From NCBI GenBank assembly GCA_016235555.1, contig JACRKC010000084.1, forward strand, positions 1 through 47,162: DNA of 47,162 nucleotides, in the 5' to 3' direction. The notes under the pieces are model-generated. The model saw only the letters and a list, made by a program, of their open reading frames with translations, was not told where the DNA came from and searched no databases. The position numbers were made by a program, and so were the translations under genes. The DNA is from Verrucomicrobiota bacterium. GTDB taxonomy: Bacteria > Verrucomicrobiota > Verrucomicrobiia > Opitutales > Opitutaceae. Position 1 is the stretch's first letter; the number at the start of each line of letters is the position of its first letter. Positions 22,908 to 42,003 of the stretch are shown here, in pieces.

Positions 22908-22976
22908 TCCCTGCCGCTTCCGCACCCCTGCAAACTTCCGGCTGACAACCGCACTCGGAGCCGCAACGTGGGCCGC

Positions 22977-24830
22977 GTGTCTGCCTCCGCTCCGCCACCC
23001 GCCGCCCCCGACCACGCGCCCGACTCGCGGGCGCGCGTGTGGCTCGCGGCCGGCCTGATCGCGCTCGCCGGGCTCGTCGCGTATGCCCACTCGTTCCACG
23101 GCCCCTTCATCCTCGATGATCTTCCGGCCATCGCGGAGAACCCGACGATTCGCGACCTCCCGGCGTGGCGCCAGGTGCTGTCGCCACCGACTAACGGCGA
23201 GACCGTCACCGGCCGGCCGCTGCTGAATCTCTCCTTCGCCCTCAACGTCGCGCTCGGCGGCCACGACGTGCGCGGGTTTCACGCGCTCAACCTCGCGCTG
23301 CATCTCGCCGCCGGCCTCGTGCTGTTCGGCCTCGTGCGGCGCACACTCAGGCGGCCGCTCGCTCCTCCGGCCTTGCGCGCGCACGCGTTGCCGCTCGCGG
23401 CGGCCGTCGCCGTGCTATGGACGGTGCATCCGCTCGCGACCGAGTCGGTCACCTACATCGCGCAGCGCGCCGAGTCGCTGGTCGGGCTGTTCTATCTGCT
23501 CACGCTTTACGGATTCATCCGCAGCGTGGACTCGCCCGCGGCCGCGGCGTGGCGCATCGCCTCGGTGGCGGCCTGCCTGCTCGGAATGGCCACCAAGGAG
23601 GTCATGGTCACCGCGCCGCTGCTCGTGCTCCTCTATGATCGGACGTTTGTGGCGGGGAGCTTCGCCACGGCGCTGCGCTCGCGCCGGGGCTACTATGCGT
23701 CGCTCGCCGCCACATGGGTTTTGCTCGGCTGGCTCGCGCTGCGCACGGGCACGCGCGGCGGCACCGCCGGATTCGGCCTTGGCGTGACGCCGTGGAACTA
23801 CGCGCTCACCCAATGCGACGCCATCGTCCGCTATGTCGTGCTCGCCGCGTGGCCGCACCCGCTGGTGATCGACTACGGGCTCGATGTGGTGAAATCTTCG
23901 TTCGCCGTCTGGCCGCAGGGCCTCGCGCTCCTCGTCGCGCTCGCGGCTACGATCGTGGCGCTTCGGCGCTGGCCGGCGGCGGGTTTTCTGGGCGCGTGGT
24001 TCTTCGCACTGCTGGCACCGAGCTCGAGCTTCATCCCGGTGGCCACGCAGACGATGGCCGAGCATCGCATGTATCTCCCGGTCGCCGCGCTCGTCACCGG
24101 CGCCGTGGCGCTCGGGTTTCTCCTGTTTCGTCGGCGCCTGTGGTGGACGGCGGCGCTCTGCCTTCTGATCGGCGGCACCCTCACGGCGCGCCGCAATCTC
24201 GACTACCGTTCGCGCCTCGGGATCTGGTCCGACACGCGCGCGAAACGGCCGCTCAATCCCCGCGCCCACCAGGAATACGCGCTCGCCCTCTTTCACGCCG
24301 GTCGGGTCGCGGAGTCGCTCCCGCCGTTTGCGGAGGCGATCCGGCTGTTTCCCGGCTACGCCGCCGCCCACCACAACCTCGCCTCCTCGCTGCTCGCACT
24401 CGGCCGGCTCGACGACGCCGCGCAGCACTACGCCCGGGCCGCCAGACTCAAACCCACCCTTCCCGAACCGCACGACATGCTGGGCAACATCCGCGCGCAG
24501 CAAGGCCGCTGGCCCGAGGCCGCCGGCCACTACGCCGACGCGTTGCGCCTCCGACCGCAGCTCACCGAAGCCCGCATCCACCTCGCCAACGCCCTCGTCT
24601 TCACCGACCGCCCGGCCGAAGCCGCGGCCCACTACGCCCTCGCGCTCCGCGAGGTCCCGGGCACGGCGGAACTGCACAACAACCACGGCGTCGCCCTCCT
24701 GCGGAGCGATCGTCCCGCCGAAGCCGCGCAGCAATTCTCCGCGGCCCTCCGTCTCGACCCGCAAAACCGCGACGCCGCGAGCAATCTCGCCCTCGCCCGC
24801 AGCCGGCTCGGCGCGCAGCCGGGACGTTGA
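22977..24830 (+). CDS. TMTC-like multi-pass membrane protein with C-terminal TPRs (array member 1)
   Basis: The product has about 617 residues, with some ten membrane segments followed by about five TPR units from residue 425 on. The first outer loop holds the acidic pair Asp47-Asp48 (FILDDLPAIAENPTI). Conserved blocks follow: HPLATESVTYIAQRAESLVG, ATKEVMVTAP and AEHRMYLP. The same blocks, as HPxHTEAV...GRAE and AERVLYLPS, mark the eukaryotic TMTC O-mannosyltransferases of the GT-C fold. I infer a lipid-linked-sugar-dependent protein glycosyltransferase acting on the periplasmic side; the sugar is unknown. The GTG at 22977 was chosen because the resulting SASAPPPA start resembles array member 7 (SASAQPPA); GTG at 22968 is an alternative. 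The gene is bracketed by the inverted 117-bp repeats. Confidence 0.8.
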   Translation: MSASAPPPAAPDHAPDSRARVWLAAGLIALAGLVAYAHSFHGPFILDDLPAIAENPTIRDLPAWRQVLSPPTNGETVTGRPLLNLSFALNVALGGHDVRGFHALNLALHLAAGLVLFGLVRRTLRRPLAPPALRAHALPLAAAVAVLWTVHPLATESVTYIAQRAESLVGLFYLLTLYGFIRSVDSPAAAAWRIASVAACLLGMATKEVMVTAPLLVLLYDRTFVAGSFATALRSRRGYYASLAATWVLLGWLALRTGTRGGTAGFGLGVTPWNYALTQCDAIVRYVVLAAWPHPLVIDYGLDVVKSSFAVWPQGLALLVALAATIVALRRWPAAGFLGAWFFALLAPSSSFIPVATQTMAEHRMYLPVAALVTGAVALGFLLFRRRLWWTAALCLLIGGTLTARRNLDYRSRLGIWSDTRAKRPLNPRAHQEYALALFHAGRVAESLPPFAEAIRLFPGYAAAHHNLASSLLALGRLDDAAQHYARAARLKPTLPEPHDMLGNIRAQQGRWPEAAGHYADALRLRPQLTEARIHLANALVFTDRPAEAAAHYALALREVPGTAELHNNHGVALLRSDRPAEAAQQFSAALRLDPQNRDAASNLALARSRLGAQPGR

Positions 24831-24972
24831 CCGACACGCCCATGCCCCGCATCGGTCGTCGCGCGGTGCACCCGGGAGAAACCGATGCCAACGACGCGCT
24901 TCCGCTGGAGCGAAACGCCCGGCCGGCATCGTGCTGTCGGCACTGCCTTCACTGACGAAACGCGTGGATCGA

Positions 24973-25089
24973 GGTGGAGCGCGTTGACCCCAACGCGCTG
25001 GTTTGAAGGTGGGAGCGGGTTTACCCCGCGACTCGTCGGGGCGTAAAGCCCCTCCCACAAAAAGCGCGTTGAGGTCAACGCGCTCCACC
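24973..25089 (-). repeat. 117-bp nested palindromic element, family IV copy b (inverted relative to copy a)
   Basis: It is the reverse complement of 22791-22907 with 6 mismatches by eye, including the 50-bp inner palindrome at 25009-25058 (GTGGGAGCGGG ... CCCCTCCCAC). It lies between array members 1 and 2, 47 bases before the start used for member 2. The stretch 24831-24972 shows nothing recognisable. Confidence 0.85.
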
Positions 25090-25136
25090 TTGACTGCGAT
25101 CCTCCGCCCAAGATCGCCGCCAGACCGCCCGCCTTG

Positions 25137-26828
25137 GTGCGCCGACGATCGCAGACCAACGCCCCGTCCGCCACCCCGGCCGCGCCCGCGCCGCCGGCGG
25201 ACCGGGTGCACTGGCCGATCGTCGGCCTCGTCGCGGCCACGCTTCTCGCCTACCTGCCCGTGTTTCGCGCCGGTTTCGTCTGGAACGACGACGACTATGT
25301 GACGGCGCCCGCCCTGCGCTCGCTGGCCGGACTGGGCCGCATCTGGACGGACGTGGGCGCGACCGAGCAATACTACCCGCTCCTGCACAGTGCGTTCTGG
25401 CTGCAACACCGCCTGTGGGGCGAGACCGCGTCGCTCTACCACCTCGTGAGCGTGTTGCTCCACGCCACCAGCGCCGTGCTCTTCGCACTCGTCCTCCGCC
25501 GCCTCGCCGTGCGCGGCGCGTGGCTGGCGGCCGGTCTCTTCGCGCTCCATCCGGTGTGCGTCGAGTCCGTCGCGTGGATCTCCGAGCAGAAGAACACGCT
25601 CTCGCTCGTGTTCTTTCTCGGCGCCACGCTCGCTTATCTCCGCTGGCAGGCCACGCCCGACCGCCGCGGTTACGGGCTGGCGACCGCGCTGTTCGGGTGC
25701 GCGCTGCTTTCGAAATCGCTCACCGCCGTCCTGCCCGCCGCGCTGCTCGTGATCGCCTGGTGGCGCCACGGTTCGCTCGACTGGCGCCGCGACGCGCGCC
25801 CGCTGGCGCTGTGGTTCGCGCTGGGAATTGCGATCAGCCTGTTTTCGGCGTGGGTGGAACACGCCGTCGTGGGCGCGGGCGAGGCCGCGCTCGGTCTCAC
25901 GCCCCTGCAACGCTGCCTGCTCGCCGGGCGCGCGGTGTGGTTCTACGCGGGCAAGCTCCTCTGGCCGTCCGGGCTGAGTTTCTTTTATCCGCGCTGGGAA
26001 ATCGACGTCACGGACTGGCGCTGGTCTGCCCTCGCGGCGGCCGCGCTCGCCCTCGTCGCCGCGCTCGGGGCGCTGCGCCATCGCACGCGCGGTCCGCTCG
26101 CCGCGGCGCTGTTCTTCGGCGGCACGTTGATTCCGGTCGCCGGGTTCTTCGACCTCTACGGCTTCGTGTATTCGTTCGTCGCGGACCACTGGCAATACCT
26201 GCCGAGCCTCGGGCTGTTCGCGCTCGCCGGCTCCGGCGGGGCCGCCCTCGGCGCGCGGCTCGCTCGCTTCGGCACCGGGTGGCCGCCGGCCCTCGCCGCG
26301 GCGGTGCTCGCCACGCTCGGGGCGCAAACCTGGCGCCAGACCCACCAATACCACGACCTCGTCACCCTGTTTCGCACGATCCAGCAAACCAACCCGCAGA
26401 GCTGGATGCCGCACGCCAGCCTCGGACAGATGCTGCTCGACGCCCGCCGGTATCAGGAAGCGCTCCCGCTGCTCGAACGCGCCGTCGCGCTGTCGCCGGC
26501 CTCGGTCCAGCCCCGCAACAATCTCGCGATGACGCTGGAGAACCTCGGCCGGCCCGCCGAGGCGTTGCGGCACTTTCAAGTCGCGCTGGCCCGCAAACCC
26601 GACTCACCGGAGTTGCACTACAACATCGGCAATTTGCAGCGCCGGCTCGGACGATCGGCCGAGGCGATCGCGAGCTTCCAACTCGCCGTGCGCCTCAAAC
26701 CGGACTTCGCCTTTGCCCATCAAAATCTCGCGATCGCCCTGCACGAGACCGGCCGCACCACCGAGGCGCGCCGGCACGCCGACCGCGCCCGCCGGCTCGA
26801 CCCCACGCTGCCCGCGGTGAACTTCTGA
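25137..26828 (+). CDS. Multi-pass membrane protein with C-terminal TPRs, TMTC-related (array member 2, VESVAW subfamily)
   Basis: The 563-residue product has the same plan as array member 1 but belongs with member 3 to a second subfamily. The first loop has Asp51-Asp53 (FVWNDDDYV), the central block reads HPVCVESVAWISEQKNTLSL rather than TESVTYVVQR, and the late block is ADHWQYLPSLG. About four TPRs follow from residue 415, the fewest in the row. A membrane glycosyltransferase role is inferred from the GT-C-like pattern. GTG at 25137 is preferred; a TTG lies directly before it. The start lies 47 bases downstream of the 117-bp repeat. Confidence 0.8.
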   Translation: MRRRSQTNAPSATPAAPAPPADRVHWPIVGLVAATLLAYLPVFRAGFVWNDDDYVTAPALRSLAGLGRIWTDVGATEQYYPLLHSAFWLQHRLWGETASLYHLVSVLLHATSAVLFALVLRRLAVRGAWLAAGLFALHPVCVESVAWISEQKNTLSLVFFLGATLAYLRWQATPDRRGYGLATALFGCALLSKSLTAVLPAALLVIAWWRHGSLDWRRDARPLALWFALGIAISLFSAWVEHAVVGAGEAALGLTPLQRCLLAGRAVWFYAGKLLWPSGLSFFYPRWEIDVTDWRWSALAAAALALVAALGALRHRTRGPLAAALFFGGTLIPVAGFFDLYGFVYSFVADHWQYLPSLGLFALAGSGGAALGARLARFGTGWPPALAAAVLATLGAQTWRQTHQYHDLVTLFRTIQQTNPQSWMPHASLGQMLLDARRYQEALPLLERAVALSPASVQPRNNLAMTLENLGRPAEALRHFQVALARKPDSPELHYNIGNLQRRLGRSAEAIASFQLAVRLKPDFAFAHQNLAIALHETGRTTEARRHADRARRLDPTLPAVNF

Positions 26829-26850
26829 TCGCGTGCGGACCTCGAGCCTC

Positions 26851-27025
26851 CCGGCGCTCGCTCCGGCGCCCTTGATCAAACCCATCATGTCCCGCTGCTT
26901 CTCGCATCGGCCCCGCGGCCCGGGTCTCCCGACCCGTGATCCCGCTCCCCGCGGGTCAGGAGACCCGGGCCACTTTCCAACCGAGCCGGAAAAATTTCCT
27001 GGCGATCGGCCCCTTCGCGCATGAC
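26851..27025 (+). repeat. Frame-and-cassette element, family I copy C, running into the next start codon
   Basis: The left frame has a diverged hairpin (CCGGCGCTCGCTCCGG) then TTGATCAAACCCATCATG. The inner REP pair at 26915-26973 is a variant of copy A (GGCCCGGGTCTCC ... AGACCCGGGCCAC). The right frame has CCAACCGAGCCGGAAAAATT then TCC, where the stem is GGAA/TTCC in place of CGAAG/CTTCG, and it ends CGCGCATGAC. The ATG in that ending is the start codon of array member 3 (27021). Confidence 0.7.
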
Positions 27026-28976
27026 CCCCTCCGCGCCCCCGCCTCTCTCCCCGTGGCCCTCCCGGCTCCTCGCCGCCGCCCTCCTCGCCGCCGCGTTCGT
27101 CGTTCATTGGCCCGCGCTGCACGGCACCTGGCTGTGGGACGATCGGGTCGATCTCCCCGACAATCTCCAGCTTCGCACCCTCGGCGGCTTGTGGAACATC
27201 TGGGCGCACCCGACCGTGCTCTACGATTTTTACCCGCTGAAACACACGGTGCAGTGGGTGCAATGGCAGCTCTGGGGCGAACACACCCTCGGCTATCACG
27301 TCACCAACGTCGCGCTGCACGCGCTCTCCGCCCTGCTGTTCTGGCGCGTGCTCGGGCAGCTCGGCCTGCGGTTCGCCTGGGCCGGCGGCCTGCTCTTCGC
27401 CGTCCACCCGCTCACCGTCGAATCGGTCGCGTGGATCGCCGAACTCAAGAACACCCTCTCCCTGCCCCCGCTCCTCCTCGCCACGAGCGCGTTCATCGAA
27501 TGGATGGACGATGCGCGGCGCGGCACCTGGCTCCGCGCGCTCGCGTGGTATCTCGTCGCCCTGCTCTGCAAGACTTCGGTGGTCATGTTTCCCTGCACGC
27601 TGCTCCTGCTGCTATGGTGGAAACGGAGCTCCCTTGCCCGCGCAACTGGCACCGGCCGCTGTGAATCCTCCAGCGTTTCGGCGGCGGCGGCCTCGGACCG
27701 CCGCGACAGATCGCCGTCCTCGGCTCTTGCTTCACCCATCGTCCGCCGCCACCTGCTCGCCACCGCCCCGTTCTTCGCCCTCTCGCTGGTGCTGGGGCTC
27801 GTGACCGTGTGGTTCCAGGTGCACCGCGCGATCGCCGGCGAAGTCATCACGATCGGCGGCCCCACGGCGCGGCTCGCGCTGGCCGGCACCGCCGGTGGTT
27901 TTTATTTTTGGAAGAGCGTCTGGCCCTTCGACCTGCTGCCGATCTACTCCCGGTGGTCCGTGTCGCCGTTTTCGCTCTGGCACGCGTTCGCCTGCGCGGC
28001 GCCCGTCGCCACCCTGGCGGTCTGTTGGTGGCGGCGCGCCACGTGGGGCCGCCATGCGTTGCTCGGCCTCGGCTGGTTCGCGCTTCACGTCGCGCCATTC
28101 GTCGGTCTCATCACCGCCTCCTACATGCGCTTTTCGTGGGTCATGGATCATTTCGCCTACGTTGCGTTGCTCGGGGTGATCGGGCTTGTCGTGGCCGCCT
28201 TGGAATGCGCCGTCCCGTTCCGCGCTGCGACCGCGGGCGTCGTGGCACTCGCCGGCCTGTTCACCTGGCACGCGCGCGCCTACGCGCACCACTTTCGCGA
28301 TGAACATTCCCTCTGGAGCTTCACCGTCGCCCGCGATCCGGACGCCTGGCTCGCCCACTACAACCTTGGCGTCGTGCTCGACAAACGCGGCGAGCGCGAC
28401 GCCGCCCGCCGCCACTACGAAACCACGCTCCGTTTGAAGCCCACCTACGCCGAGGCCCACGGCAACCTCGGCGTCCTGCTCGCCGACCGCGGCGATTTCG
28501 CCGGCGGACTCGCCCACCTCCGCGAGTCCGTCCGCCTCGATCCCGCCTACGCCGAAGGCTTCAGCAACCTCGGTTTCGCCCTGCTCAACGCCGGCCACGT
28601 CGCCGACGCCATCGCCGCGCTCGAACACGCCGTCCGCGTCAAACCCGACTACGTCGACGCCTACGCCAACCTCGGCAGCGCCCTCCGCCGCGCCGGCCGC
28701 ACCGCCGATGCCATCGCCCGGTTTCAGACCATCCTCCGCCTCCGCCCCGACTCGCCGACCGTCCACTTCAACCTCGGCAACGCCCAGCGCGACCTCGGCC
28801 AGCTCGCCGGATCCATCGCCAGCTACGAACGCGCCATCGCCCTCCGGCCCGCCCTCGCCGTCGCGCACCGCAACCTCGCCATCTCCCTCCGCGACACCGG
28901 CCGCACCGCCGAAGCCCGCGCCCGCTACGCCGAAGCCCGCCGGCTCGACCCCAGCTTCCCCCCTTGGCCGGAGTGA
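27021..28976 (+). CDS. Multi-pass membrane protein with C-terminal TPRs, TMTC-related (array member 3, VESVAW subfamily)
   Basis: The product has 651 residues. The acidic pair is Asp40-Asp41 (LWDDRVDLPDN) and the central block is HPLTVESVAWIAELKNTLSL; the late block has MDHFAYVALLG. Around residues 210-235 a soluble Ser/Ala/Arg-rich loop (SSVSAAAASDRRDR) is absent from member 2. About six regular TPRs follow from residue 445 (for example AHYNLGVVLDKRGERDAARRHYE). Function is inferred as for the other members. Its ATG lies in the right end of repeat copy C, so its upstream leader is made largely of repeat sequence. Confidence 0.83.
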   Translation: MTPSAPPPLSPWPSRLLAAALLAAAFVVHWPALHGTWLWDDRVDLPDNLQLRTLGGLWNIWAHPTVLYDFYPLKHTVQWVQWQLWGEHTLGYHVTNVALHALSALLFWRVLGQLGLRFAWAGGLLFAVHPLTVESVAWIAELKNTLSLPPLLLATSAFIEWMDDARRGTWLRALAWYLVALLCKTSVVMFPCTLLLLLWWKRSSLARATGTGRCESSSVSAAAASDRRDRSPSSALASPIVRRHLLATAPFFALSLVLGLVTVWFQVHRAIAGEVITIGGPTARLALAGTAGGFYFWKSVWPFDLLPIYSRWSVSPFSLWHAFACAAPVATLAVCWWRRATWGRHALLGLGWFALHVAPFVGLITASYMRFSWVMDHFAYVALLGVIGLVVAALECAVPFRAATAGVVALAGLFTWHARAYAHHFRDEHSLWSFTVARDPDAWLAHYNLGVVLDKRGERDAARRHYETTLRLKPTYAEAHGNLGVLLADRGDFAGGLAHLRESVRLDPAYAEGFSNLGFALLNAGHVADAIAALEHAVRVKPDYVDAYANLGSALRRAGRTADAIARFQTILRLRPDSPTVHFNLGNAQRDLGQLAGSIASYERAIALRPALAVAHRNLAISLRDTGRTAEARARYAEARRLDPSFPPWPE

Positions 28977-29361
28977 GGCGGTCGCGCCGGCCGCGTCAAA
29001 CCGCGGATCGCCGACACGGCGCCGCGGCTATGACGCGATAGTCCCAATGCATCCGGCCACTCGTTTTTGACACCGGGCGCACCGCACTCCGCCACGCGGT
29101 TCCCAGCGCGGCCCTGCCGCAATCGAACCATTGGAACACGAAGGCCGGGGCGACCGGGAAGAACAAGGAACCGGATTCTCCCCGACCTTCCCGAACTTCC
29201 TGTTCAAGCATCTTGTTCAAGCTGGGCGTTCCTTCGACTTCATCCACGAAATCCGCGTCATCTGCGGTCAAGGAATGCCTGTTCCCCGCTTTGGTCGCGG
29301 CGTCGGCCAGCGACCGGACCTGCGGGCCAATGCCGGTGGACGATTGGCCGTCCACTTTCCC
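28977..29361. other. Intergenic stretch, apparently old dispersed non-coding sequence
   Basis: No frame here has a credible start, length or composition. On the minus strand, 29160-29270 can be read as fragments such as LTADDADFVDEVEG and LFFPVAPAFVFQWFD, a pattern I recall as a recurring intergenic sequence in several phyla rather than a real protein. It forms the gap between array member 3 and the mobile element at 29371. Confidence 0.45.
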
Positions 29362-29370
29362 GTCGCTGCG

Positions 29371-29511
29371 GGGTGTAACTCAAAGTGAGGTCATCTTTCG
29401 AGGGCCTCGGCTGTAGCGGCGGTCTATGACCGCCGTCGTTGCGCCAAGGGCATTCGTTCGGCGGTCATAGACCGCCGCTACAGATCGCTGACCTCGGTTT
29501 GAGTCACACCC
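29371..29511. mobile_element. 141-bp MITE-like element, family II copy a, with 9-bp target-site duplication
   Basis: Terminal inverted repeats read GGGTGTAACTCAAAGTGAGG at the left and GGGTGTGACTCAAACCGAGG as the complement of the right end. The 9-bp direct repeat GTCGCTGCG flanks it at 29362-29370 and 29512-29520. The inner REP pair starts GTAGCGGCGGTCTATGACCG and ends with the complementary arm closing CCGCCGCTAC. It lies 64 bases upstream of lipA and has no coding capacity. Confidence 0.88.
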
Positions 29512-29575
29512 GTCGCTGCGTGCCCGCCGAAAACCCGCTTGTTATCCCGGGCGTTTCGTATGCATTCCTCGCCCG

Positions 29576-30490
29576 ATGTATCCGCAGTCCTCCACCGACA
29601 CCACGCGCAAACCCACCTGGCTCCGCGCCAAGCTGCCCGGCGGCCCCGGCTACACCGCCACGCGCGCCCTCGTCGACCGCAACGCCCTCCACACCGTCTG
29701 CCAGAGCGCCCAGTGCCCCAACCTCGGCGAATGCTGGTCGCGCGGCACCGCTACCGTGATGATCCTCGGCAACATCTGCACCCGCTCGTGCACGTTCTGC
29801 GCCATCGCCACGGGCCGCCCGACCGAACTCGACCTCGGTGAACCCGCCCGCGTCGCCGACGCCGTCGCCCGGATGAACCTCCGCCACTGCGTCATCACCA
29901 GCGTCGCCCGCGACGAGCTCGCCGACGGCGGCGCCAGCGTCTGGGCCGCCACCATCCGCGCCATCCGCCACCGCTGTCCCCACACCGCCATCGAAGTCCT
30001 CACCCCCGACTTCAAGGGCCACCTCGCCCACGTCGACCTCGTGCTCGACGCCCGCCCCGACATCTTCAACCACAACCTCGAGACCGTCGAGCGCCTGCAA
30101 AAACCCGTGCGCGTGCAGGCCCGCTACGACCGCTCCCGTTCCGTCCTCCGCCACGCCAAAGGCCGCGGCTTCACCACCAAGACCGGTCTCATGCTCGGCG
30201 TCGGCGAGACCCACGAGGAACTCGAGCAGACCCTCCGCGACATCGCCGCCGACCGCACCGACATCCTCACCATCGGCCAGTATCTCCAACCCACGCCCAA
30301 GCACCTGCCCGTTTCGCGCTGGGCCACGCCGGAGGAATTCACGCACTGGAAAAACTTCGGCCTCAGCCTCGGCCTCGGCGTCGTGGAGAGCGGCCCGCTC
30401 GTGCGCTCCAGCTACCACGCCGACGAGCAGTCGCAGAAATACACCGGCCCCGAGCACCTCAACACCGCCAACGCCCTCGCCGGCGCTTAA
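29576..30490 (+). CDS. lipA: Lipoyl synthase (radical SAM)
   Basis: The 304-residue enzyme inserts two sulfurs into octanoyl groups on lipoyl carrier proteins. It carries both iron-sulfur cluster motifs: the auxiliary cluster Cys42, Cys47, Cys53 (CQSAQCPNLGEC) and the radical SAM cluster Cys68, Cys72, Cys75 (CTRSCTFC). It ends in the family's SSYHADEQ, whose Ser ligates the auxiliary cluster. Length and motifs are normal, so it should be active. Its position is odd: a housekeeping gene within a row of TMTC-like genes, with no lipB neighbour in view and a MITE directly upstream. The ATG at 29576 gives the standard N-terminus. Confidence 0.96.
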   Translation: MYPQSSTDTTRKPTWLRAKLPGGPGYTATRALVDRNALHTVCQSAQCPNLGECWSRGTATVMILGNICTRSCTFCAIATGRPTELDLGEPARVADAVARMNLRHCVITSVARDELADGGASVWAATIRAIRHRCPHTAIEVLTPDFKGHLAHVDLVLDARPDIFNHNLETVERLQKPVRVQARYDRSRSVLRHAKGRGFTTKTGLMLGVGETHEELEQTLRDIAADRTDILTIGQYLQPTPKHLPVSRWATPEEFTHWKNFGLSLGLGVVESGPLVRSSYHADEQSQKYTGPEHLNTANALAGA

Positions 30491-30700
30491 CGCCCGCCCC
30501 TCGTGGACGAGGCGTCCCGCCTCGTGCCCCCGGCCCGTCCCCACCATCACCTGCGTGTAGCTCTGCGTCGTCTCCACGTTCTCAGCCAACAGCGTTGCAG
30601 TCGGATGGTGCGAAATGAGGTGGCAGCCGAGGTCACGAGGCTGGTGTTTGCGACTCACCCCAAGCCGGCCTCCCCTGCCCGCCGGTTCAGGACATCGCCA
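30491..30700. other. Gap after lipA: one REP palindrome and an integrase-like remnant
   Basis: A GTGGACGAGGCGTCCCGCCT palindrome lies at 30502-30525, of the same stem family as 11135-11195. The remainder includes the recombinase-like fragment annotated separately. No intact gene is present. Confidence 0.5.
30542..30625 (-). pseudogene. Possible remnant of a tyrosine recombinase C-terminus
   Basis: On the minus strand this reads HPTATLLAENVETTQSYTQV. The ending VETTQxYTxV is the region of the catalytic Tyr in Xer- and integron-type integrases, and the HxxATxLLEN block normally lies about 25 residues before it; here the intervening sequence is missing. It lacks a start and the Arg box, so it cannot be functional. 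The match is short and could be chance. Confidence 0.3.
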
Positions 30701-30715
30701 GCAGCCTTTGCGGCT

Positions 30716-30856
30716 GGGTGTGACAGGGCGTGAGGTCAGTAAACCGAGGCCTTGGTTGTAGCGGCGGTCTGCGACCGCCGAACGAGAACCCTTGGCGCAT
30801 CGACGGCGGTCGCAGACCGCCGCTCCAGCTGGCTGACCGCACTTCCGGTTGCAGCC
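30716..30856. mobile_element. 141-bp MITE-like element, family II copy c, with 9-bp target-site duplication
   Basis: The left end is GGGTGTGACAGGGCGTGAGG and the complement of the right end is GGCTGCAACCGGAAGTGCGG, which aligns with the left end of copy b. The 9-bp direct repeat TTTGCGGCT flanks it (30707-30715, 30857-30865); the identical stretch extends left to 15 bases because GCAGCC also precedes it on both sides. The inner REP pair is a GTAGCGGCGGTCTGCGACCG variant. Length equals copies a and b exactly. Confidence 0.8.
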
Positions 30857-30880
30857 TTTGCGGCTGCGCACCTTTTTCTG

Positions 30881-30919
30881 TCATTGCGCGGAGCTCCGTC
30901 ACGAAGCAATCCATCTGAA
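30881..30919. repeat. Short dispersed repeat of the TCATTGCG...GAAGCAATCC type
   Basis: TCATTGCGCGGAGCTCCGTC is followed by ACGAAGCAATCCATCTG. Near-identical short sequences recur between genes in many unrelated bacteria. It ends 5 bases before the glycoside hydrolase start codon, so it would form most of that gene's leader. Confidence 0.5.
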
Positions 30920-30924
30920 AAACC

Positions 30925-32541: not shown

Positions 32542-32563
32542 TTCCACGACCGGTCGAACGATG

Positions 32564-32715: not shown

Positions 32716-32770
32716 CGAACGAGGCCGCCACCCGTGTTTCGCCTCGAACCTTGCCGCGGCGTCGCCGTAA

Positions 32771-35113: not shown

Positions 35114-35157
35114 AGTCGATCATGAACTTCCAGCGACGAAACAGGCGCAGCTCAGTG

Positions 35158-35226
35158 GTAGGGCCGGTCTCCGACCGGCCCATTCGTGCGGTGCGCATGC
35201 GCCGGGCAGGTCGCAGATCTGCCCGA
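35158..35226. repeat. REP pair with unlike stems between array members 4 and 5
   Basis: The first palindrome is GTAGGGCCGGTCTCCGACCG continuing GCCC; the second, read as complement, is GTCGGGCAGATCTGCGACCT continuing GCCC. They face each other like the other pairs, but their stems differ in sequence, so each folds on its own. A short GC palindrome CCCCCGCGTGCGGGGG follows near 35238. Confidence 0.6.
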
Positions 35227-35283
35227 CTCCCAGCCGCCCCCGCGTGCGGGGGCCATGACCGCCACTGACCCCGCCGCCCGGCC

Positions 35284-37401
35284 ATGCCCGCTTCCTCCCT
35301 CGTCTCCATCGCGTCGGCGCTCTGCCGGCGGGACGATTTCCGGCGCGCCGCCCTGCTCGTCGTCGCAGTGTTCGCCGCCTACTGCAACATCTGGTCCGCT
35401 CCCTTCGTCCTCGACGACCACCTCTCCATTTTGCGCAACCCCACCATCCACCGCCTCGGCTGGGAGGCGCTGGTTCCGCCCCGGGGATTTGGTTTCACCG
35501 TGGAAGGCCGGCCGGTGCTGAACCTGTCGCTGGCGTTCAACTACGCGTGGACGGGCCCGGCGGTCTGGAGTTACCACCTCGTCAACGTCGCCATCCACGC
35601 GCTCGCCGCGCTCGTCCTGTTCGGCGTGGCACGGCGCGCCCTGGCCCGCGCCCGGTGCCCCGGGCCCGATGCGGTTGGTTTCGCCGCCGCATCCCTGTGG
35701 GCGCTGCATCCGCTGCAAACCGGGTCGGTCTCCTACGTCGTCCAGCGGACCGAGTCGCTCATGGGGCTTTTTTTCCTGCTGACGCTCTACGCCGTGCTGC
35801 GCGGAGCGGAGTCGGACCGACCCGCGCGGTGGCAGGCGCTCGCGTGCGTAGCCTGTGCCCTCGGCATGGCCACAAAGGAAGTGATGGTCGTCGCGCCGGT
35901 GATCGTGCTGCTGTTCGACCGGACGCTGCTCGCCGGCTCGTTCCGCGAAGCGTGGCTCCGTCGCCGGGCGCTCTACTGCGGCCTCGCAACGACCTGGCTG
36001 CTGCTCGCCTGGCTCGTGCTCGGCTCCGGCAGTCGCGGCGGCACGATCGGCGCGGCGGCCGGAATTTCGCCCTGGGACTACGCTCTCTGCCAGGCCCGCG
36101 GCGTGGTGCACTATCTCTCACTCGCGCTCTGGCCGGTCCGCCTGATCTTCGACTACGGGACGGATCGGGTGTCGCTGGCGGAAGCCGCTCCGTTTGTCGC
36201 GATCGACCTCGTGTTGCTCAGCCTGACCGGGATCGCGCTGTGGCGGCGTTCGCCCGTCGGGCTGCTCGGCGCCTGGTTCTTCCTGATCCTCGCGCCGACC
36301 TCCTCCGTCGTCGGTGGCACGCGCCAGATGCTGGCCGAGCACCGGCTCTATCTCTCGCTCGCCGCCGTCGCGGTCGCGTTGGCCGGCACGGCGTTCATCG
36401 TCCTCGGCCGCCGCGCCTGGGTTTTGTGCGCGACGGCCGCCGTCGCACTCGCCCTGACCACCGCGCAGCGCAACGTCGATTATCGCAGCGAACTCGCCCT
36501 CCACGGCGACACGGTCGCCAAGCGCCCCGGCAACATCTACGCCCGCATCAACTACGGCAACGCCCTCCTCGTCGCCGGTCGCGCCGCGGAGGCGGTGGGC
36601 CAGTTCGAGGCCGCCACGCGCCTGCGGCCCGGCTTCCACCTCGCGCTCAGCAATCTCGCCGGCGCCTACCATCAGGCCGGTCGCTCCGCCGACGCGGCGG
36701 ACGCCGCGCGCGCCGCGCTCGCCGCCAAGCCCGATCACGCCGAGGCCCGTTTCAATCTTGCCGCGGCGCTCCTCCAACTCGGCCGCCCCGTCGAGGCGAT
36801 CACTCATTACGAAACCGCGATCCGACTCAAACCCGACTACGCCGAAGCCTGCAACGGCCTCGGCGCCGCGCTCGCCGCCGCCGGCCGCTCCGCCGAGGCG
36901 ATCGCCCGGCTGCAGGACGCCGTCCGGCTTCGGCCCGGCTTCGCCGAGGCTCACTACAATCTCGCGACCGCGCTCGTGCAGACCGGCGATGCCCCCGCGG
37001 CGGAACCGCACTACCTCGCCGCGATCCAGCATCGTCCCGATTATGCCGATGCGTATTTCAATCTCGGGACCACGCTCCTCCAGCGCGGCCGGTTCGCTGA
37101 GGCGGCGCGGCACCTCGACACCGCCGCCCGGCTGCGGCCCGGCCATGCGGGCAGCCAGAGCAACTTGGGACTGGCGCTGATGCAGCTGGGGAATCTCGAC
37201 CAAGCCAAAGCCCGGTTCGAGGCGGCGTTGCGCATCGACGCCAACTTCGCCGACGCCCACTGCAATCTCGCCGTCGTGCTCGCTCGCGGGGGCCGGAGCG
37301 CCGACGCCATCGGCCACCTTGAAGCCGCCCTGCGCGCCAACCCGGACCACGCGTTTGCCCGCGAAACGCTGGCGAAGCTCCGCGCCACCCCGCCGCCGTA
37401 A
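35284..37401 (+). CDS. TMTC-like multi-pass membrane protein with eight C-terminal TPRs (array member 5)
   Basis: The product has 705 residues, with acidic pair Asp44-Asp45 (FVLDDHLSILRNPTI), GRPVLNLSLAFNYAWTG, HPLQTGSVSYVVQRTESLMG, ATKEVMVVAP and AEHRLYLSLA. The Glu of the usual TESVTY block is Gly here (TGSVSY), which may matter if that residue binds substrate. About eight TPRs run from residue 415 to the end. The stop codon TAA is shared with the left end of repeat copy D. It is the nearest relative of array member 4. Confidence 0.85.
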   Translation: MPASSLVSIASALCRRDDFRRAALLVVAVFAAYCNIWSAPFVLDDHLSILRNPTIHRLGWEALVPPRGFGFTVEGRPVLNLSLAFNYAWTGPAVWSYHLVNVAIHALAALVLFGVARRALARARCPGPDAVGFAAASLWALHPLQTGSVSYVVQRTESLMGLFFLLTLYAVLRGAESDRPARWQALACVACALGMATKEVMVVAPVIVLLFDRTLLAGSFREAWLRRRALYCGLATTWLLLAWLVLGSGSRGGTIGAAAGISPWDYALCQARGVVHYLSLALWPVRLIFDYGTDRVSLAEAAPFVAIDLVLLSLTGIALWRRSPVGLLGAWFFLILAPTSSVVGGTRQMLAEHRLYLSLAAVAVALAGTAFIVLGRRAWVLCATAAVALALTTAQRNVDYRSELALHGDTVAKRPGNIYARINYGNALLVAGRAAEAVGQFEAATRLRPGFHLALSNLAGAYHQAGRSADAADAARAALAAKPDHAEARFNLAAALLQLGRPVEAITHYETAIRLKPDYAEACNGLGAALAAAGRSAEAIARLQDAVRLRPGFAEAHYNLATALVQTGDAPAAEPHYLAAIQHRPDYADAYFNLGTTLLQRGRFAEAARHLDTAARLRPGHAGSQSNLGLALMQLGNLDQAKARFEAALRIDANFADAHCNLAVVLARGGRSADAIGHLEAALRANPDHAFARETLAKLRATPPP

Positions 37402-37580
37402 AAATCCCCGGAGCAAGCTCCGGGGCATTTGACCAAACCATCCATCATGTCCTCCCCCCGATTTCCGGCTCTGGTGGCTGCGAGCGTAAGCGAGTGGTTT
37501 CTCGTCCACTCGCTCACGCTCGCGGTTACACCAACCAAGGCGAAGCAAGCTTCGCGGTCTCGAACCCAACGAGAATGAAC
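37398..37580 (+). repeat. Frame-and-cassette element, family I copy D, filling the whole gap between two genes
   Basis: The left frame begins GTAAAAATCC (its TAA is the upstream stop codon) with hairpin CCGGAGCAAGCTCCGG. The inner REP pair at 37474-37529 starts GTGGCTGCGAGCGTAAGCGA and ends CTCACGCTCGCGGTTAC. The right frame has CGAAGCAAGCTTCG and ends CGAGAATGAAC, whose ATG (37575) starts the next gene. Its right frame matches copy A at about 43 of 50 positions by eye. Confidence 0.82.
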
Positions 37581-39419
37581 ACCGCCTCCGGTGGGATCAA
37601 CCTCGCCTGCCTCGGCCGGCTCGCGCTGCACCCGTCGCTCGCGCCGTTGCTCCTCGTTGCCGCGGCCGCGTGCGCCTATCTCAACGGCCTGACGGTGCCG
37701 TGGCTCTTCGACGACGAGCGCGCGATCACGGGCAACCCCACGATCCGCCATCTCTTCTCGCCCGCCGCCCTGCATCCCCCGGCCGACGGCAGCGGCGTCG
37801 CCGGCCGGCCGCTCGTGAACCTGACCCTCGCGGTCAACCACGCGATCGGCGGCGACGCTGTGCGGGGCTACCACGTCTTCAACCTCGCGCTCCACTGCGG
37901 CACCGCGCTGCTCGTGTTCGGGCTGGCGCGGCTCACGCTCGGGCAACCCACCGTCGCCGCCTGGCTCCGTCCAGCGGCGCGGCCCCTCGCCCTCGCCATC
38001 GCCGCACTCTGGGCGCTGCATCCCCTCCAGACCGAGTCCGTCACCTGCGTGATTCAACGCACGGAGTTGCTCGTGGGATTTTTCTACGCGGCGACGCTTT
38101 ACAGCCTCGCGCGCGCGGCGCTCGCGCCCGGCGTCCCCCGCTGGCCGGTCGTCTGTGTCACGAGTTGCCTCCTCGGGATGGCGGGCAAGGAGGTCATGGT
38201 CACCGCCCCGGTCATCGCCTGGCTGTTCGATCGCACGTTTTTCGCCGGCACGTTTGCCGCCGCGTGGCGCTCCCGCGGGCGGCTCCATCTCGCCCTCGGC
38301 GCAACCTGGCTCCTGCTCGCGCTGCTGGTCGCCGCCCACGGCGGCACGCGCGGGCCAGCCGCGGGATTCGGCCTCGGCGTGAGTTCGTGGTCCTACGCGC
38401 TGACGCAGTGCGACGCGCTGCTCCTCTATGTCCGGCTCGCCCTCTGGCCGCACCCGCTCGTGCTCGACTACGGCACCGATCTGGTCACCGACGCCGCGGC
38501 GGTCGCTCCAGCCATCGTGCTGTGTGTCGCCGCCGGCCTCGCCACGGTCGTGGCGGTCTGGCGCTGGCCGGCAGCCGGCTTTCTCGGTGCGTGTTTTTTC
38601 GTCATCCTCGCGCCGAGTTCCAGCGTGGTGCCGCTCGTCACCCAGACCGTGGCGGAACACCGGATGTATCTGCCGCTCGCCGCCGTGGTCGCGCTGGCCG
38701 CGACGGGTGCGTTTCGCCTCTGCGGATCGCGGCTGTGGGCGCCGCTGGTGCTCGCGGCCGGTTTGTTCGCAGGCCTGACCGCGCTGCGCAATCGCACCTA
38801 CCAGGACGAACACGCCATCTGGGCCGACACCGTCGCGCGGCGGCCCGGCAACGCCCGCGCCCACATGGGGCTGGGCCTCGCGTTGTTCCGCGCCGGGCAC
38901 CATGAGCAGAGCCTGGCCCGGCTCGCGCAAGCCGTCACGCTGCGTCCCGCCTACGCCGAGGCGCACAACAACCTCGGCCTCGCCCTCGCCCGGACCGGTC
39001 GCACCGCCGAGGCCATCGCCGCCTACGAGGCCGCGTTGCGCGCCCTGCCCGGTTACCCGGACGCCGCCTACAATCTCGCGGTCGCGCTGCTCCAGCTCGG
39101 GCGCGCCCCGGAAGCGATCGCCCGCCTGCGCGACGTCGTGCAAGCCCGGCCGGACTTCGCCGCGGCGCGCAACAACCTGGGTATCGCTCTGGCCAGCACG
39201 AACCGCCTGCCGGAGGCGGTCGCGGAGTTCGAGGCGTTGCTGACACTCGATCCGGCCAACGCCGAGGCCCACAACAACCTCGGCACCTGCTGGCGCAACC
39301 TCGGCCGGCCCGCCGCCGCGCGACGGCATTACCAGGAGGCCGTGCGGCTGCGGCCCGGCTTCACCCTCGCGCGGGAGAACCTCGCGCGGCTGGTCGCGCC
39401 CGCGGCGCCGCCACCGTGA
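37575..39419 (+). CDS. TMTC-like multi-pass membrane protein with five C-terminal TPRs (array member 6)
   Basis: The product has 614 residues, acidic pair Asp46-Asp47 (WLFDDERAITGNPTI), GRPLVNLTLAVNHAIGG, HPLQTESVTCVIQRTELLVG, AGKEVMVTAP and AEHRMYLPLA. About five TPRs begin near residue 424. It resembles array member 1 in RGxxAGFGLGV and WPHPLVxDYG. The start codon is the ATG inside the right end of repeat copy D; the frame upstream of it consists of repeat sequence only. A family III element has inserted one base after the stop codon region (target duplication 39420-39428). Confidence 0.85.
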   Translation: MNTASGGINLACLGRLALHPSLAPLLLVAAAACAYLNGLTVPWLFDDERAITGNPTIRHLFSPAALHPPADGSGVAGRPLVNLTLAVNHAIGGDAVRGYHVFNLALHCGTALLVFGLARLTLGQPTVAAWLRPAARPLALAIAALWALHPLQTESVTCVIQRTELLVGFFYAATLYSLARAALAPGVPRWPVVCVTSCLLGMAGKEVMVTAPVIAWLFDRTFFAGTFAAAWRSRGRLHLALGATWLLLALLVAAHGGTRGPAAGFGLGVSSWSYALTQCDALLLYVRLALWPHPLVLDYGTDLVTDAAAVAPAIVLCVAAGLATVVAVWRWPAAGFLGACFFVILAPSSSVVPLVTQTVAEHRMYLPLAAVVALAATGAFRLCGSRLWAPLVLAAGLFAGLTALRNRTYQDEHAIWADTVARRPGNARAHMGLGLALFRAGHHEQSLARLAQAVTLRPAYAEAHNNLGLALARTGRTAEAIAAYEAALRALPGYPDAAYNLAVALLQLGRAPEAIARLRDVVQARPDFAAARNNLGIALASTNRLPEAVAEFEALLTLDPANAEAHNNLGTCWRNLGRPAAARRHYQEAVRLRPGFTLARENLARLVAPAAPPP

Positions 39420-39428
39420 ACCCGCCCG

Positions 39429-39543
39429 GGGCGCATCTCACTTTCCTGCACTGCGGAGGGGCGCTTTTCCGAGCGCCCAAGCTCGGCGGTTGAAAACCGC
39501 CGCTCCATCGATCTCTCCGGACTGCAGGAAACTGAGATCCGCC
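39429..39543. mobile_element. MITE-like element, family III copy b, interrupted by a family II element
   Basis: The left end GGGCGCATCTCACTTTCC pairs with the right end GGAAACTGAGATCCGCC. The copy is completed by one base at 39695, beyond the inserted family II element. The 9-bp direct repeat ACCCGCCCG flanks the whole composite at 39420-39428 and 39696-39704. Its inner palindromes are GGAGGGGCGCTTTTCCGAGC and the complement GGAGCGGCGGTTTTCAACCG, unrelated to those in copies a and c. Confidence 0.82.
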
Positions 39544-39684
39544 GGGTGCAACTCAAAGTGAGGTCAGTTTTCGAATGCCTCGGCTGTAGCGGCGGTCTAT
39601 GACCGCCGTCGTTGCACCAAGGGCATTCGTTCGGCGGTCATCGACCGCCGCTACAGATCGCTGACCTCAGTTTGAGTCACACCC
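39544..39684. mobile_element. 141-bp MITE-like element, family II copy b, nested in a family III element
   Basis: The left end is GGGTGCAACTCAAAGTGAGG and the complement of the right end is GGGTGTGACTCAAACTGAGG. It is flanked by the direct repeat GAGATCCGCC (39534-39543 and 39685-39694), which is a duplicated piece of the family III right end. The interior is nearly identical to copy a, including the GTAGCGGCGGTC pair and the central CCAAGGGCATTCGTT. Confidence 0.88.
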
Positions 39685-39747
39685 GAGATCCGCCCACCCG
39701 CCCGTTCGGGGTTTGCGTCCACCCGCGCCCCGTGTGCCATGAACGTG

Positions 39748-39857
39748 TGATATCAACGACCCGGAGCTTTCAGACTTTCCGTGGCAGGCCCGCCCGGTGG
39801 GCGGGCTGCCCGGCAAACGGCCGGGCCTGCAATCCAAAAGCAAAGTGACGTTAGTAT
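39748..39857. repeat. Intergenic element with imperfect outer inverted repeat (copy 2), running into the next start codon
   Basis: It is homologous to 133-245: the left flank holds AGCTTTCAGACTTTCCGT and the right flank ATCCAAAAGCAAAGTGACG then TTAGTATG. Inside is a GGCAGGCCCGCC / GGCCGGGCCTGC pair. The ATG at its right edge (39856) is the start codon of array member 7. The stretch 39705-39747 shows nothing recognisable. Confidence 0.7.
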
Positions 39858-42003
39858 GAGCGCCTCCGCCCAGCCCCCCGCGCCGCGCAGTCCGGCGAAT
39901 CGCCGGCGCGTCCTCGCGGCCATCGCGCTCCTCGCCGCCGCCGTCGCGGCCTACCACAACAGCCTGCACGGCGCGTTCGTCTTCGACGACATCGACTCCC
40001 TCCTCGAGAATCCCACCCTCCGGAGCTGGTGGCCGCCGTGGAGCCCGTTCATCCCACCGCATTCCAGCACCGACGGCGGGCTGACGGTCAGCGGACGGCC
40101 GGTGTTGAACGCCTCGTTCGCCCTGAACTTCGCGATCAGCGGCACCGACCCGTGGAGTTACCACCTCGGTAATCTGCTCATCCACGCCGCCGCCGGCCTC
40201 GTGCTCTTCGGTCTCGCGCGCCGCACCTTCGGGCTGATCCTGGCCCGCCGCGGCCAGCCCGGGGCGCCCGCGGATTTTCTCGGCTTCGCCACGGCGCTGC
40301 TGTGGACGGTGCATCCGCTGCAAACCGAATCGGTCACCTACGTCGTCCAGCGCGCCGAGTCGCTGTGCGGTTTGTTTTATCTGCTCACCCTCTACGCCAC
40401 CAGCCGGAGCGCGGAGCCCGGCGCCGGCCGGCGGTGGCCGCTCGTGGCCGTCGCGGCCTGCACGCTCGGCATGGCCACGAAGGAGGTCATGGTCTCCGCC
40501 CCGTTGCTCGCGCTGTTCTACGACCGCACTTTTCTCGCCGATTCATTCCGGAGCGCCTGGCGGCAACGGTGGCGGCTGCACCTCGCCCTGTTTGGCCCGT
40601 GGGTGGTGCTGGCGCTGCTGGTCGCGTCGGGCGGCGGCAACCGTGGCGGCTCCATCGGCGTCGGTGTCGAGGTCTCGTGGTGGGGCTATCTGCTCACGCA
40701 ACCCGTGGCATTGCTGCGCTACCTCGCGCTCGGCTGCTGGCCGGCGCCGTTGGTGTTCGAATACGGCAGGTTCCTCGTCGGCCGATGGACCGGGGTCGCG
40801 CCCCAGGCGCTGCTCCTCCTCGGGGTGGTCGTCGCGGGCGCCTGGGGCTTCGTCCGCCGCTCGCCCTTCGGTTTCGCCGTCGCGTGGGGCGCCGCCGTGC
40901 TCGCGCCCACGACGCTCGTTCCCGGCACGACCCAGCTGATCGTGGAGCACCGGGTTTACCTCGCCGCGGCGCCCGCGCTGGCCATCGGAGTCTTTGGATT
41001 GTTCGCCATCTGCGGCCGGCGCGTCTGGCTGCCGGCGCTGATCGCCGGAGCGGCGTTCATCGCCCTCACGGTGGACCGCAATCGCGACTACGCCTCCCCC
41101 GTCGCCCTCTGGGGCGACACGGTGGCGAAGCGCCCCGCCAACCTCATCGCCCGCGTGCAATTTGGCAACGCCCTCCTCGCCGCCAACCGGCCCGCCGAGG
41201 CGCTCGCGCAATTCGAGGCCATGCGACAACTGGACCCGGACTCGGCCGCCGCGCACAGCGGCCTCGGCACCGCGCTGCTCGCCCTGCAACGCCCCGCCGA
41301 CGCCGTCGCGCCGCTCGAGACCGCCGCGCGTCTCCAGCCGGACCTCGCGGTGGCCCACCTCAACCTCGGGCTCGCGCTCCAGCGCACCGGCCGGCCCGCC
41401 GAGGCGCTCGTCCGCCTCGCCACCGCCGTGCGCGTGCAGCCGGAATTCGCGCCCGCCCGCGAAGCCTACGCCGCACTCCTGCTCCAGTCCGGCCGGCCCG
41501 CCGAGGCCCAGGCCCAATGGGAGCGCCTCGTGACCGATTCGCCAGCCACACACCCGTTGCGCATCAAGCTGGGCGATCTCCTCCTGCAAACCAACCAACC
41601 GGCCGCCGCCGCCGTCCACTACGAACGCGTCCTGCGCGACGAGCCGGGCCACGTGCTCGTGCACGCCAACCTCGGCAGCGCGCTCGCCCTCCTCCAGCGC
41701 TTCGACGAAGCGTTTCGGCACTTTGAAACCGCGCTCCGGCTCCAGCCGGGCAGCGCCGGCGTGCACAATGCCTACGCCGATGCCTTGCTCCGGGCCGGGC
41801 GCAACGCCCCGGCCCTCGACCACGCCAGCGAAGCCCTGCGCCTGCAACCCGGCTTCGTCGAGGCGCACTGCAACGTCGGCAACGCCCTCAGCCAGATGGG
41901 GCGCGCCGCCGAGGCGATCCGCGCCTACACGACGGCGCTGGCGCTCCGCCCCGACTACGCTCCCGCTCAACAAAACCTCGCGCGCCTGCGCGGCACGCCG
42001 TGA
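39856..42003 (+). CDS. TMTC-like multi-pass membrane protein with eight C-terminal TPRs (array member 7)
   Basis: The product has 715 residues, acidic pair Asp44-Asp45 (FVFDDIDSLLENPTL), GRPVLNASFALNFAISG, HPLQTESVTYVVQRAESLCG, ATKEVMVSAP and a late block VEHRVYLAAA. About eight TPRs run from residue 427. The N-terminal SASAQPPA resembles array member 1, suggesting they derive from each other. It is the last of the row and converges with the minus-strand operon, with only 24 bases (a short GC palindrome) between the stops. The start codon is the ATG at the edge of the upstream repeat; no Shine-Dalgarno sequence is visible there. Confidence 0.85.
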   Translation: MSASAQPPAPRSPANRRRVLAAIALLAAAVAAYHNSLHGAFVFDDIDSLLENPTLRSWWPPWSPFIPPHSSTDGGLTVSGRPVLNASFALNFAISGTDPWSYHLGNLLIHAAAGLVLFGLARRTFGLILARRGQPGAPADFLGFATALLWTVHPLQTESVTYVVQRAESLCGLFYLLTLYATSRSAEPGAGRRWPLVAVAACTLGMATKEVMVSAPLLALFYDRTFLADSFRSAWRQRWRLHLALFGPWVVLALLVASGGGNRGGSIGVGVEVSWWGYLLTQPVALLRYLALGCWPAPLVFEYGRFLVGRWTGVAPQALLLLGVVVAGAWGFVRRSPFGFAVAWGAAVLAPTTLVPGTTQLIVEHRVYLAAAPALAIGVFGLFAICGRRVWLPALIAGAAFIALTVDRNRDYASPVALWGDTVAKRPANLIARVQFGNALLAANRPAEALAQFEAMRQLDPDSAAAHSGLGTALLALQRPADAVAPLETAARLQPDLAVAHLNLGLALQRTGRPAEALVRLATAVRVQPEFAPAREAYAALLLQSGRPAEAQAQWERLVTDSPATHPLRIKLGDLLLQTNQPAAAAVHYERVLRDEPGHVLVHANLGSALALLQRFDEAFRHFETALRLQPGSAGVHNAYADALLRAGRNAPALDHASEALRLQPGFVEAHCNVGNALSQMGRAAEAIRAYTTALALRPDYAPAQQNLARLRGTP

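Follow-up and report, generated by a model that had tools for sequence, protein, structure and literature searches.

What might a bacterium do with seven large and related membrane proteins encoded within 20 kb? The question is posed by contig JACRKC010000084.1 of a Verrucomicrobiota bacterium of the family Opitutaceae. The stretch analysed here (47,162 nucleotides, G+C content 69%, hereafter the window) is one whole contig, C50, of a genome of 8.03 Mb in 140 contigs. An original prediction, made from the letters of the window, placed at 22977-42003 a row of seven proteins with membrane domains and tetratricopeptide repeats (TPRs), likened them to the TMTC O-mannosyltransferases of eukaryotes, and proposed a locus for protein O-glycosylation. 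The row exists as seven plus-strand open reading frames (ORFs) at 22887-42003; the first ORF has an in-frame GTG at position 22977, possibly its true start.

The balance of evidence tilts, without much to spare, toward reading the seven proteins as inner-membrane GT-C-type glycosyltransferases that depend on polyprenyl-phosphate sugars and act on exported proteins, together forming a sister family of the TMTCs. This reading draws on membership of a sequence family, domain order, invariant residues, the charge pattern of the loops, copy number and neighbor statistics.

Seven genes in two subfamilies

The product of each ORF (G+C at third codon positions 0.87-0.89) begins with a hydrophobic domain of about 410 residues and continues with TPRs, and the membrane domains of all seven can be aligned. 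To that extent the genes are a single family, as predicted, but one that comprises two subfamilies. Group A consists of gene 1 (22887-24830), gene 4 (32771-35113), gene 5 (35284-37401), gene 6 (37494-39419) and gene 7 (39781-42003), which are 46-63% identical in the membrane domain, genes 4 and 5 being the 63% pair. Group B consists of gene 2 (25134-26828) and gene 3 (27021-28976), which over the same domain are 34% identical to each other and 20-26% identical to group A. Genes 3 and 6 were assigned by domain scan and alignment. Automatic annotation would tell little about these proteins: the NCBIfam models that matched the seven were of TPR type only, and exceeded the cut-off in two, as a generic TPR domain.

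The sequence blocks previously described as common to all seven are real, but two of them are less uniform than was claimed. Gene 1 carries DD, HPLATESVTYIAQRAES, KEVM and AEHRMYL. The HPL-TESVTYVVQR-E block varies even within group A (TYIAQRAES in gene 1, HPLQTGSVSYVVQRTES in gene 5 and TESVTCVIQRTEL in gene 6), and KEVM is kept in five of the seven proteins, the remaining two retaining just the Lys. Conservation was assessed in an alignment of 54 group A sequences, made up of 17 of the 19 group A members of the genome and 37 of 79 named loci (40 were tried and 39 read through; two further sequences were omitted). All 54 sequences share D49, D50, R81, P82, N106, H110, H149, P150, Q161, R162, E164, K205, E206, W290, P291, R361 and Y363. 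The acidic motif of the first loop is thus DD in 54 of 54, and reads NDDD in gene 2 and WDD in gene 3. Such invariance argues for a working active site, the catalytic-loop positions among these residues being D49, D50, R81, H149, E164, K205 and R361.

Relationship to GT-C enzymes and TMTCs

Which known enzymes do these proteins resemble? The Pfam GT-C model PMT_2 (PF13231) exceeds its cut-off of 26.1 bits in gene 2 (E 2.2e-7, 31.7 bits) and gene 7 (E 4.7e-7, 30.6 bits), falls below it in gene 4 (17.2 bits) and is unlisted for the other four; at E values up to 0.01 it is found in 8 of the 27 family domains known from the genome. A profile search of the genome returned the seven with E values from 0 to 1.8e-197, as it must, given that the profile was built from them. 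More telling is a comparison of group A with a profile built from four bacterial TPR proteins of PF08409 type, all from the same phylum, of which two (L157 and L158) exceed the cut-off of PF08409 and two (L159 and L164) lie below it. The two profiles align end to end over 384 columns (99.4%, E 1.1e-21), and the alignment pairs, group A first, DD with DD, RP with RP, HPL-TESV with HPLHSEAV, QRTES with GRAEL, KE with KE, DYG with DYS and AEHRMY with GERLYY.

PF08409 itself (TMTC_DUF1736) is a different matter. None of the seven matches it at E values up to 1, in lists from which, for three of the proteins, the weakest family was left out. Among the 27 domains of the genome there is one match, in a protein on contig C108, at E 0.006 and below the cut-off; a search of the genome alone gave no match and its controls were silent too. 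Across the phylum, PF08409 is matched in 7 of 194 genomes at E 0.01 and over the cut-off in 2 of 194, with silent controls. One weak match (G006:C19:247472, E 0.0025) falls within a group A gene.

The key residues of TMTCs, according to PMC7801869, are DD in the first outer loop (EL1), an Asp in EL2 with a Lys in EL3, the Arg of AERV in EL5 (R404 of TMTC1), and the His and Lys of SHKSYRP. The EL3 Lys is present in all 27 domains of the genome. At the EL2 acid position all 54 group A sequences have Glu, and both group B genes of the window have Asn. The position of the EL5 Arg, the phosphate-binding residue of TMTCs, is occupied by His in all seven array proteins and in 49 of the 54 aligned group A sequences; an Arg follows one residue later in 54 of 54, and in neither gene 2 nor gene 3.

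Distant kinship with the TMTCs, whose human members attach mannose to cell-adhesion proteins, and with the wider GT-C class thus withstands scrutiny in the PMT_2 matches, the PF08409-type profile, the catalytic-loop residues and the order of the loops; it does not extend to a PF08409 match or to the phosphate-binding Arg, and on these two features the seven fall outside the TMTC family in its strict sense. We infer from sequence that the seven genes belong to a GT-C-type glycosyltransferase family with the corresponding fold.

Predicted structure and membrane topology

An AlphaFold2 model of gene 4, built from 54 aligned sequences, has a mean predicted local distance difference test (pLDDT) score of 93.4 and a predicted template-modeling score of 0.85; for gene 3, with seven sequences, the pLDDT was 78.7. 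In the gene 4 model the membrane domain spans residues 23-408 or so and the TPRs approximately 425-777. The first transmembrane helix (TM1, 23-41) is followed by a long loop bearing DD, then by TM2 (99-127), TM3 (135-148), TM4 (159-183), TM5 (187-202), TM6 (206-224) and TM7 (227-255), a second long loop bearing DYG, and TM8 (305-328) and TM9 (330-347). A further helical segment (367-408) was divided into TM10 and TM11 by reading and without a transmembrane predictor, and the count of about 11 helices rests on that division.

The loops with DD, HPLQTES, KEV, DYG and EHR all lie on one side of the model. On this catalytic side, with loop limits set by hand from the model, the density of Lys and Arg is 0-0.62 per 10 residues in four of five loops; the fifth, EL3, is six residues long and reaches 1.67 through the conserved Lys. 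On the opposite side four of five loops have 1.92-2.21 and the fifth 0.67. Both this charge pattern and the order of helices in the model would suit the TMTC arrangement of 11 transmembrane helices with TPRs on the lumenal or periplasmic side. We infer that the catalytic loops of the modeled protein would face the periplasm.

A large family and an old array

The genome contains at least 27 proteins of this family, 20 of them on 17 other contigs. Grouped by reading of their alignment, 19 belong to group A and 5 to group B, and 3 are nearer to classical TMTCs or their kin. The long N-terminal extensions of two of these ORFs (L041 and L044) were rejected as out-of-frame readings on grounds of composition. 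Beyond this genome, a group A profile matches at E 1e-20 in 31 of 57 genomes (our own included), with 1 to 25 matches each, counts for which at most 31 candidates were scored per genome and which include some matches from other groups. The matching genomes are 27 of 37 from the same family and 4 of 20 from the other families of the order. With about 9 candidates scored in each genome, a profile of all 27 domains finds matches in 87 of 194 genomes from the phylum. Among the best 79 of 165 places with relatives of gene 4, all are in drafts labeled Opitutae or other Verrucomicrobia, with the single exception of one labeled Syntrophaceae. The expansion suggested by the row of seven is hence borne out well beyond the window.

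Are the seven then the product of a recent local burst of duplication? A FastTree tree was built from 171 family members with 4 rows as outgroup (4 of 175 genes being omitted for short domains, and 57 of 171 inner branches being weakly supported). In it the common ancestor of the five group A genes of the window spans 137 of the 175 tips, and only genes 4 and 5 lie close together. An ancestor of such breadth shows that the array did not arise by recent local amplification; its copies are old and divergent. The site itself is shared: in one relative (L140) homologues of the genes from lpxB to lysS are followed by two family members and lipA in identical order, its lipA being 86.5% identical to that of the window, which places family members between lysS and lipA in both. 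Other relatives also have tandem arrays: L138 carries six members, the sixth being on the opposite strand, L137 carries five, and the short contig L141 four.

Receptor genes upstream of family members

We assembled 119 loci (the window, 19 further stretches of its genome, the 79 named loci and 20 stretches of relatives), picked by similarity or for tandem arrays and irrespective of their neighbors. Some loci overlap between sources; counted as distinct core sequences they hold 175 distinct family genes. Genes were called by a simple script based on G+C position, with no trained gene finder; three loci (L078, L091 and L123) had a profile match but no called family gene, and one (L049) had no match.

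Of the 175 family genes, 24 have a TonB-dependent receptor as their next upstream neighbor on the same strand and 3 have one on the opposite strand; for 45 that neighbor is a paralogue and for 96 some other gene, and 7 lie at a contig edge. Next downstream there is 1 receptor on the same strand and 4 on the opposite strand, and among background genes three or more places away 5 of 440 are receptors. In the genome studied, outside the window, a same-strand receptor is next upstream of 3 of 20 family genes. The hidden Markov model behind these positional counts was built from frequent neighbors; Pfam provides the independent test. Of 79 same-strand, non-paralogous upstream genes, 71 were submitted (repeats, ORFs with unknown letters and those of <120 or >1600 amino acids (aa) being dropped), together with 100 of 415 control genes that include some doubtful ORF calls. 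The TonB Plug domain was found in 15 of 71 upstream genes against 2 of 100 controls (Fisher p 4e-5), and the Oar-like barrel PF25183 in 7 of 71, while it is not among the 25 of 113 families listed for the controls.

The pairing also follows enzyme clade. Sorted by N-terminal motif strings set by hand, 19 of the 24 receptors form three classes (11, 5 and 3 members); the other 5 could be placed in none and were left out of the class test. Mapped onto the enzyme tree, receptor class requires 2 changes over the 19 sorted pairs, the minimum possible, compared to a mean of 7.3 and a minimum of 5 in 200 shuffles. Receptor presence requires 13 changes, compared to a shuffle mean of 22.4 and minimum of 17. 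This pairing suggests, without proving it, that dedicated enzymes would glycosylate exported proteins.

Receptors are not the only recurrent neighbors. Sodium:solute symporters account for 6 of the 71 upstream genes tested with Pfam. In three loci (L058:1-7767, L061:1305-7743 and L063:1453-7647) members close to genes 4 and 5 stand, as judged by eye, behind a DUF1343/NamZ-like gene and a sodium:solute symporter; also by eye, L058 and L063 have a glycerate kinase, and L058 and L061 a LacI-type regulator.

Sugar donor, candidate acceptors and surrounding genes

Enzymes of the proposed kind would need a lipid-linked sugar. The genome encodes six ArnC-like glycosyltransferases at E <1e-28, the best being 46% identical to ArnC of Escherichia coli, from which it is likely that polyprenyl-phosphate sugars are made in this host. 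A gene from one glycosyltransferase family 2 (GT2) cluster adjoins a family member in six loci (L134:7887-8669, L148:8416-9198, L155:6790-8307, L075, L108 and L133), a raw count, GT2 genes being common and the identity having been checked as PF00535 in one locus. In L134 and L148 the GT2-type gene sits between two family members.

The nearest candidate acceptors in the window are three delta-60 (DUF5122) beta-propeller proteins encoded on the plus strand upstream of the array, all with Ig-like domains, one over the Pfam cut-off and two below it. The first (11340-15221) has an Ig_3 match at E 0.0021, below cut-off. The second (15038-18499; DUF5122 E 2e-39) has an Ig_3 match at E 1.4e-5, also below cut-off; the start of its ORF overlaps the preceding beta-propeller gene, and its true start lies further in. 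The third (18565-22761; DUF5122 E 2.4e-49), directly 5' of gene 1, has an Ig_2 match at E 1.1e-6 and 29.3 bits (cut-off 27). In humans, Ig-like domains are acted on by TMTCs, and recruitment of acceptors has been proposed for the TPRs of these enzymes (PMC11292533).

Several further observations concern exported proteins. The first beta-propeller protein contains, by eye, a long low-complexity stretch rich in Thr, Ala and Pro. Regions of this composition are elsewhere often O-glycosylated. At least 150 matches to TonB Plug and at least 150 to Ig_3 occur in the genome, the latter in very long ORFs (up to an open frame of 6826 aa; contigs C63, C101, C114, C125 and others). In another genome, one open frame of 14967 aa near position 3962929 (G003:C1) has an Ig_3 match.

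Read from its left end, the window has on the minus strand a CHASE-PAS hybrid sensor kinase with two receiver domain matches (482-4528), lpxB, a Gfo/Idh-type oxidoreductase, lolD and lolE (both by eye) and lysS, the label chosen here for a class II tRNA synthetase of the D/K/N kind. On the plus strand follow the three beta-propeller genes, genes 1-3, lipA, a glycosidase and genes 4-7. From gene 1 to gene 7 consecutive plus-strand genes are separated by 92 to 599 bases, ignoring a small opposite-strand ORF call at 28996-29355. The glycosidase that had been noticed within the row is an MGH1-like glycoside hydrolase (30925-32520, plus strand; PF22422 E 1e-77), probably exported, with a signal-peptide-like N-terminus by eye; it does not stand there alone, as the lipoyl synthase gene lipA (29576-30490, plus strand; NF004019 E 6.2e-120, over cut-off), which we regard as a bystander, also lies between genes 3 and 4.

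Discussion

Under the reading we favor, a membrane domain of about 11 helices with catalytic loops facing the periplasm would take a sugar from a polyprenyl-phosphate carrier and pass it to exported proteins, each acceptor being selected by the periplasmic TPR coil. Divergent copies would have different acceptors, which in some of the relatives would include TonB-dependent receptors. Predicted features of this scheme are catalysis itself, the side of the membrane, the donor lipid, the sugar, the protein acceptors and what the TPRs do. A bolder version, which we consider decidedly unlikely, would give Opitutus-group bacteria a protein glycosylation system of many enzymes, one for each client: every TMTC-like transferase would serve its own TonB-dependent receptor or giant adhesin and would read this client with its TPR coil. 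The animal TMTCs would then be a narrow branch of a bacterial family.

A number of results weigh against the glycosyltransferase reading. In group B no acid stands at the position aligned with the EL2 acid, and the EL5 site is without an Arg. A sequence search of the PDB with the 27-domain profile returned no GT-C chain, just weak matches to an ABC permease. Structure searches with the full-length models of genes 3 and 4 listed TPR or similar repeat proteins (the TPRs of O-GlcNAc transferase being top for gene 4) and no GT-C fold; TPRs filled the lists, and we do not use this absence as evidence. Likewise E. coli ArnT gave no match as a single sequence, a comparison made without a family profile and hence not evidence against the reading. 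No TonB-dependent receptor adjoins the array of the window, and 151 of the 175 family genes have no same-strand receptor next upstream (among them 45 that follow a paralogue and 7 next to a contig edge). Across 13 genomes (12 picked by hand and our own, the latter entered with its 19 group A members although the profile lists 23, and with Plug and Ig_3 counts of at least 150), copy number is not significantly correlated with the number of Plug matches (rho 0.47, p 0.10) or of Ig_3 matches (rho 0.30, p 0.32). One genome (G020) has 62 Plug and 103 Ig_3 matches and no group A match at E 1e-20. An association of the enzymes with Ig-domain proteins, on the animal pattern, finds no correlation in the same 13 genomes, one of which (G017) has 5 Ig_3 against 10 family matches; we keep it as a possibility. 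The specialization for different targets that was originally proposed is favored by the deep divergence of the array members and by the pairing with receptor classes elsewhere, but not by any receptor beside the array itself.

How might the same data be explained otherwise? The neighbor link, taken alone, might reflect nutrient-use cassettes that carry receptors and family genes together and are shuffled among relatives, an explanation compatible with any other reading and one we regard as somewhat unlikely. The symporters upstream, the loci with glycerate kinase, DUF1343 and LacI-type genes, and the failure of copy number to track receptor number significantly are all in its favor; yet the bias in direction, with same-strand receptors 24 times upstream and once downstream (3 and 4 on the other strand), speaks against it, as does the pairing of receptor class with enzyme clade. 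That pairing, which better fits protein acceptors, also bears on the possibility that enzymes of the same catalytic type act in the manner of ArnT on lipid A, O-antigen or some other surface glycan, with the TPRs docking a partner protein. ArnT is, by HHpred, the closest solved relative of TMTC, and acceptors are diverse among GT-C enzymes, both according to PMC7801869; lpxB lies in the same window, and the GT2 genes beside family members in six loci would suit a glycan pathway no less than they suit a donor synthase. But TPR coils are, as general knowledge has it, protein-binding parts, and the stretch from lpxB to lysS is synteny shared with a relative and has no obvious link to the array. 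We hold this alternative to be unlikely.

The membrane domain may, finally, have lost sugar transfer altogether and serve to anchor a periplasmic TPR platform that helps to insert or run TonB-dependent receptors or other exported proteins. Receptor genes upstream and the two sites missing from group B would suit such an anchor, and PIG-U shows that a GT-C-like protein may be devoid of activity (PMC7801869). A mere anchor would, however, have no need of the seven catalytic-loop positions, DD included, that are invariant in all 54 group A sequences, and we think this explanation very unlikely.

New in this analysis are the family of at least 27 genes in one genome, the finding that the array is not a recent duplication, the link to receptors upstream and the agreement of receptor class with enzyme clade. 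They are of value for the size of the family and for the receptor pairing. A literature search found no description of this family in bacteria, which is weak evidence of novelty, as most subscription papers and all bioRxiv preprints lay outside its scope. The work consulted describes TMTC activity for animal cells, and PMC11292533 leaves open the basis on which the TPRs select acceptors. With up to 25 matches per genome and gene pairs that name a candidate acceptor, a bacterial family would make the choice of acceptor testable in simple cells. Glycosylation may also prove to be an added layer in the receptor-rich outer membranes of Verrucomicrobiota.

How does the family compare to known systems? 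The general O-glycosylation of Bacteroidota, in which exported proteins are reported to be glycosylated, would be similar in that respect. ArnT and PMT/POMT are of GT-C type with an acidic motif in the first outer loop (PMC7801869), and PMT_2 matches part of the array family, while ArnT and PMT/POMT themselves showed no direct sequence match to it in these comparisons. The array proteins combine such a domain with TPRs. ArnT and PMT/POMT are not known to carry any. The PF08409-type TPR proteins of the same phylum have the same domain order and an end-to-end profile match to group A; they differ in having GRAEL, GRADL or GRGEL, KEN or KEH, and GER or AER where group A has QRxE, KEV and AEHR. 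TMTC homologues have been stated to occur even among prokaryotes (PMC7801869). TMTC1-4 (CAZy GT105, PF08409) are animal proteins and the array family is bacterial; the seven lack a PF08409 match, have His at the Arg404 position, replace the EL2 Asp by Glu in group A without keeping an acid in group B, and do not keep the His and Lys of SHKSYRP. Against these differences stand a membrane domain followed by TPRs, a predicted order of loops like that published for TMTCs, and the retention of the EL1 DD, the EL3 Lys and the RP of SHKSYRP, and our best guess is that the array proteins would work as TMTCs do.

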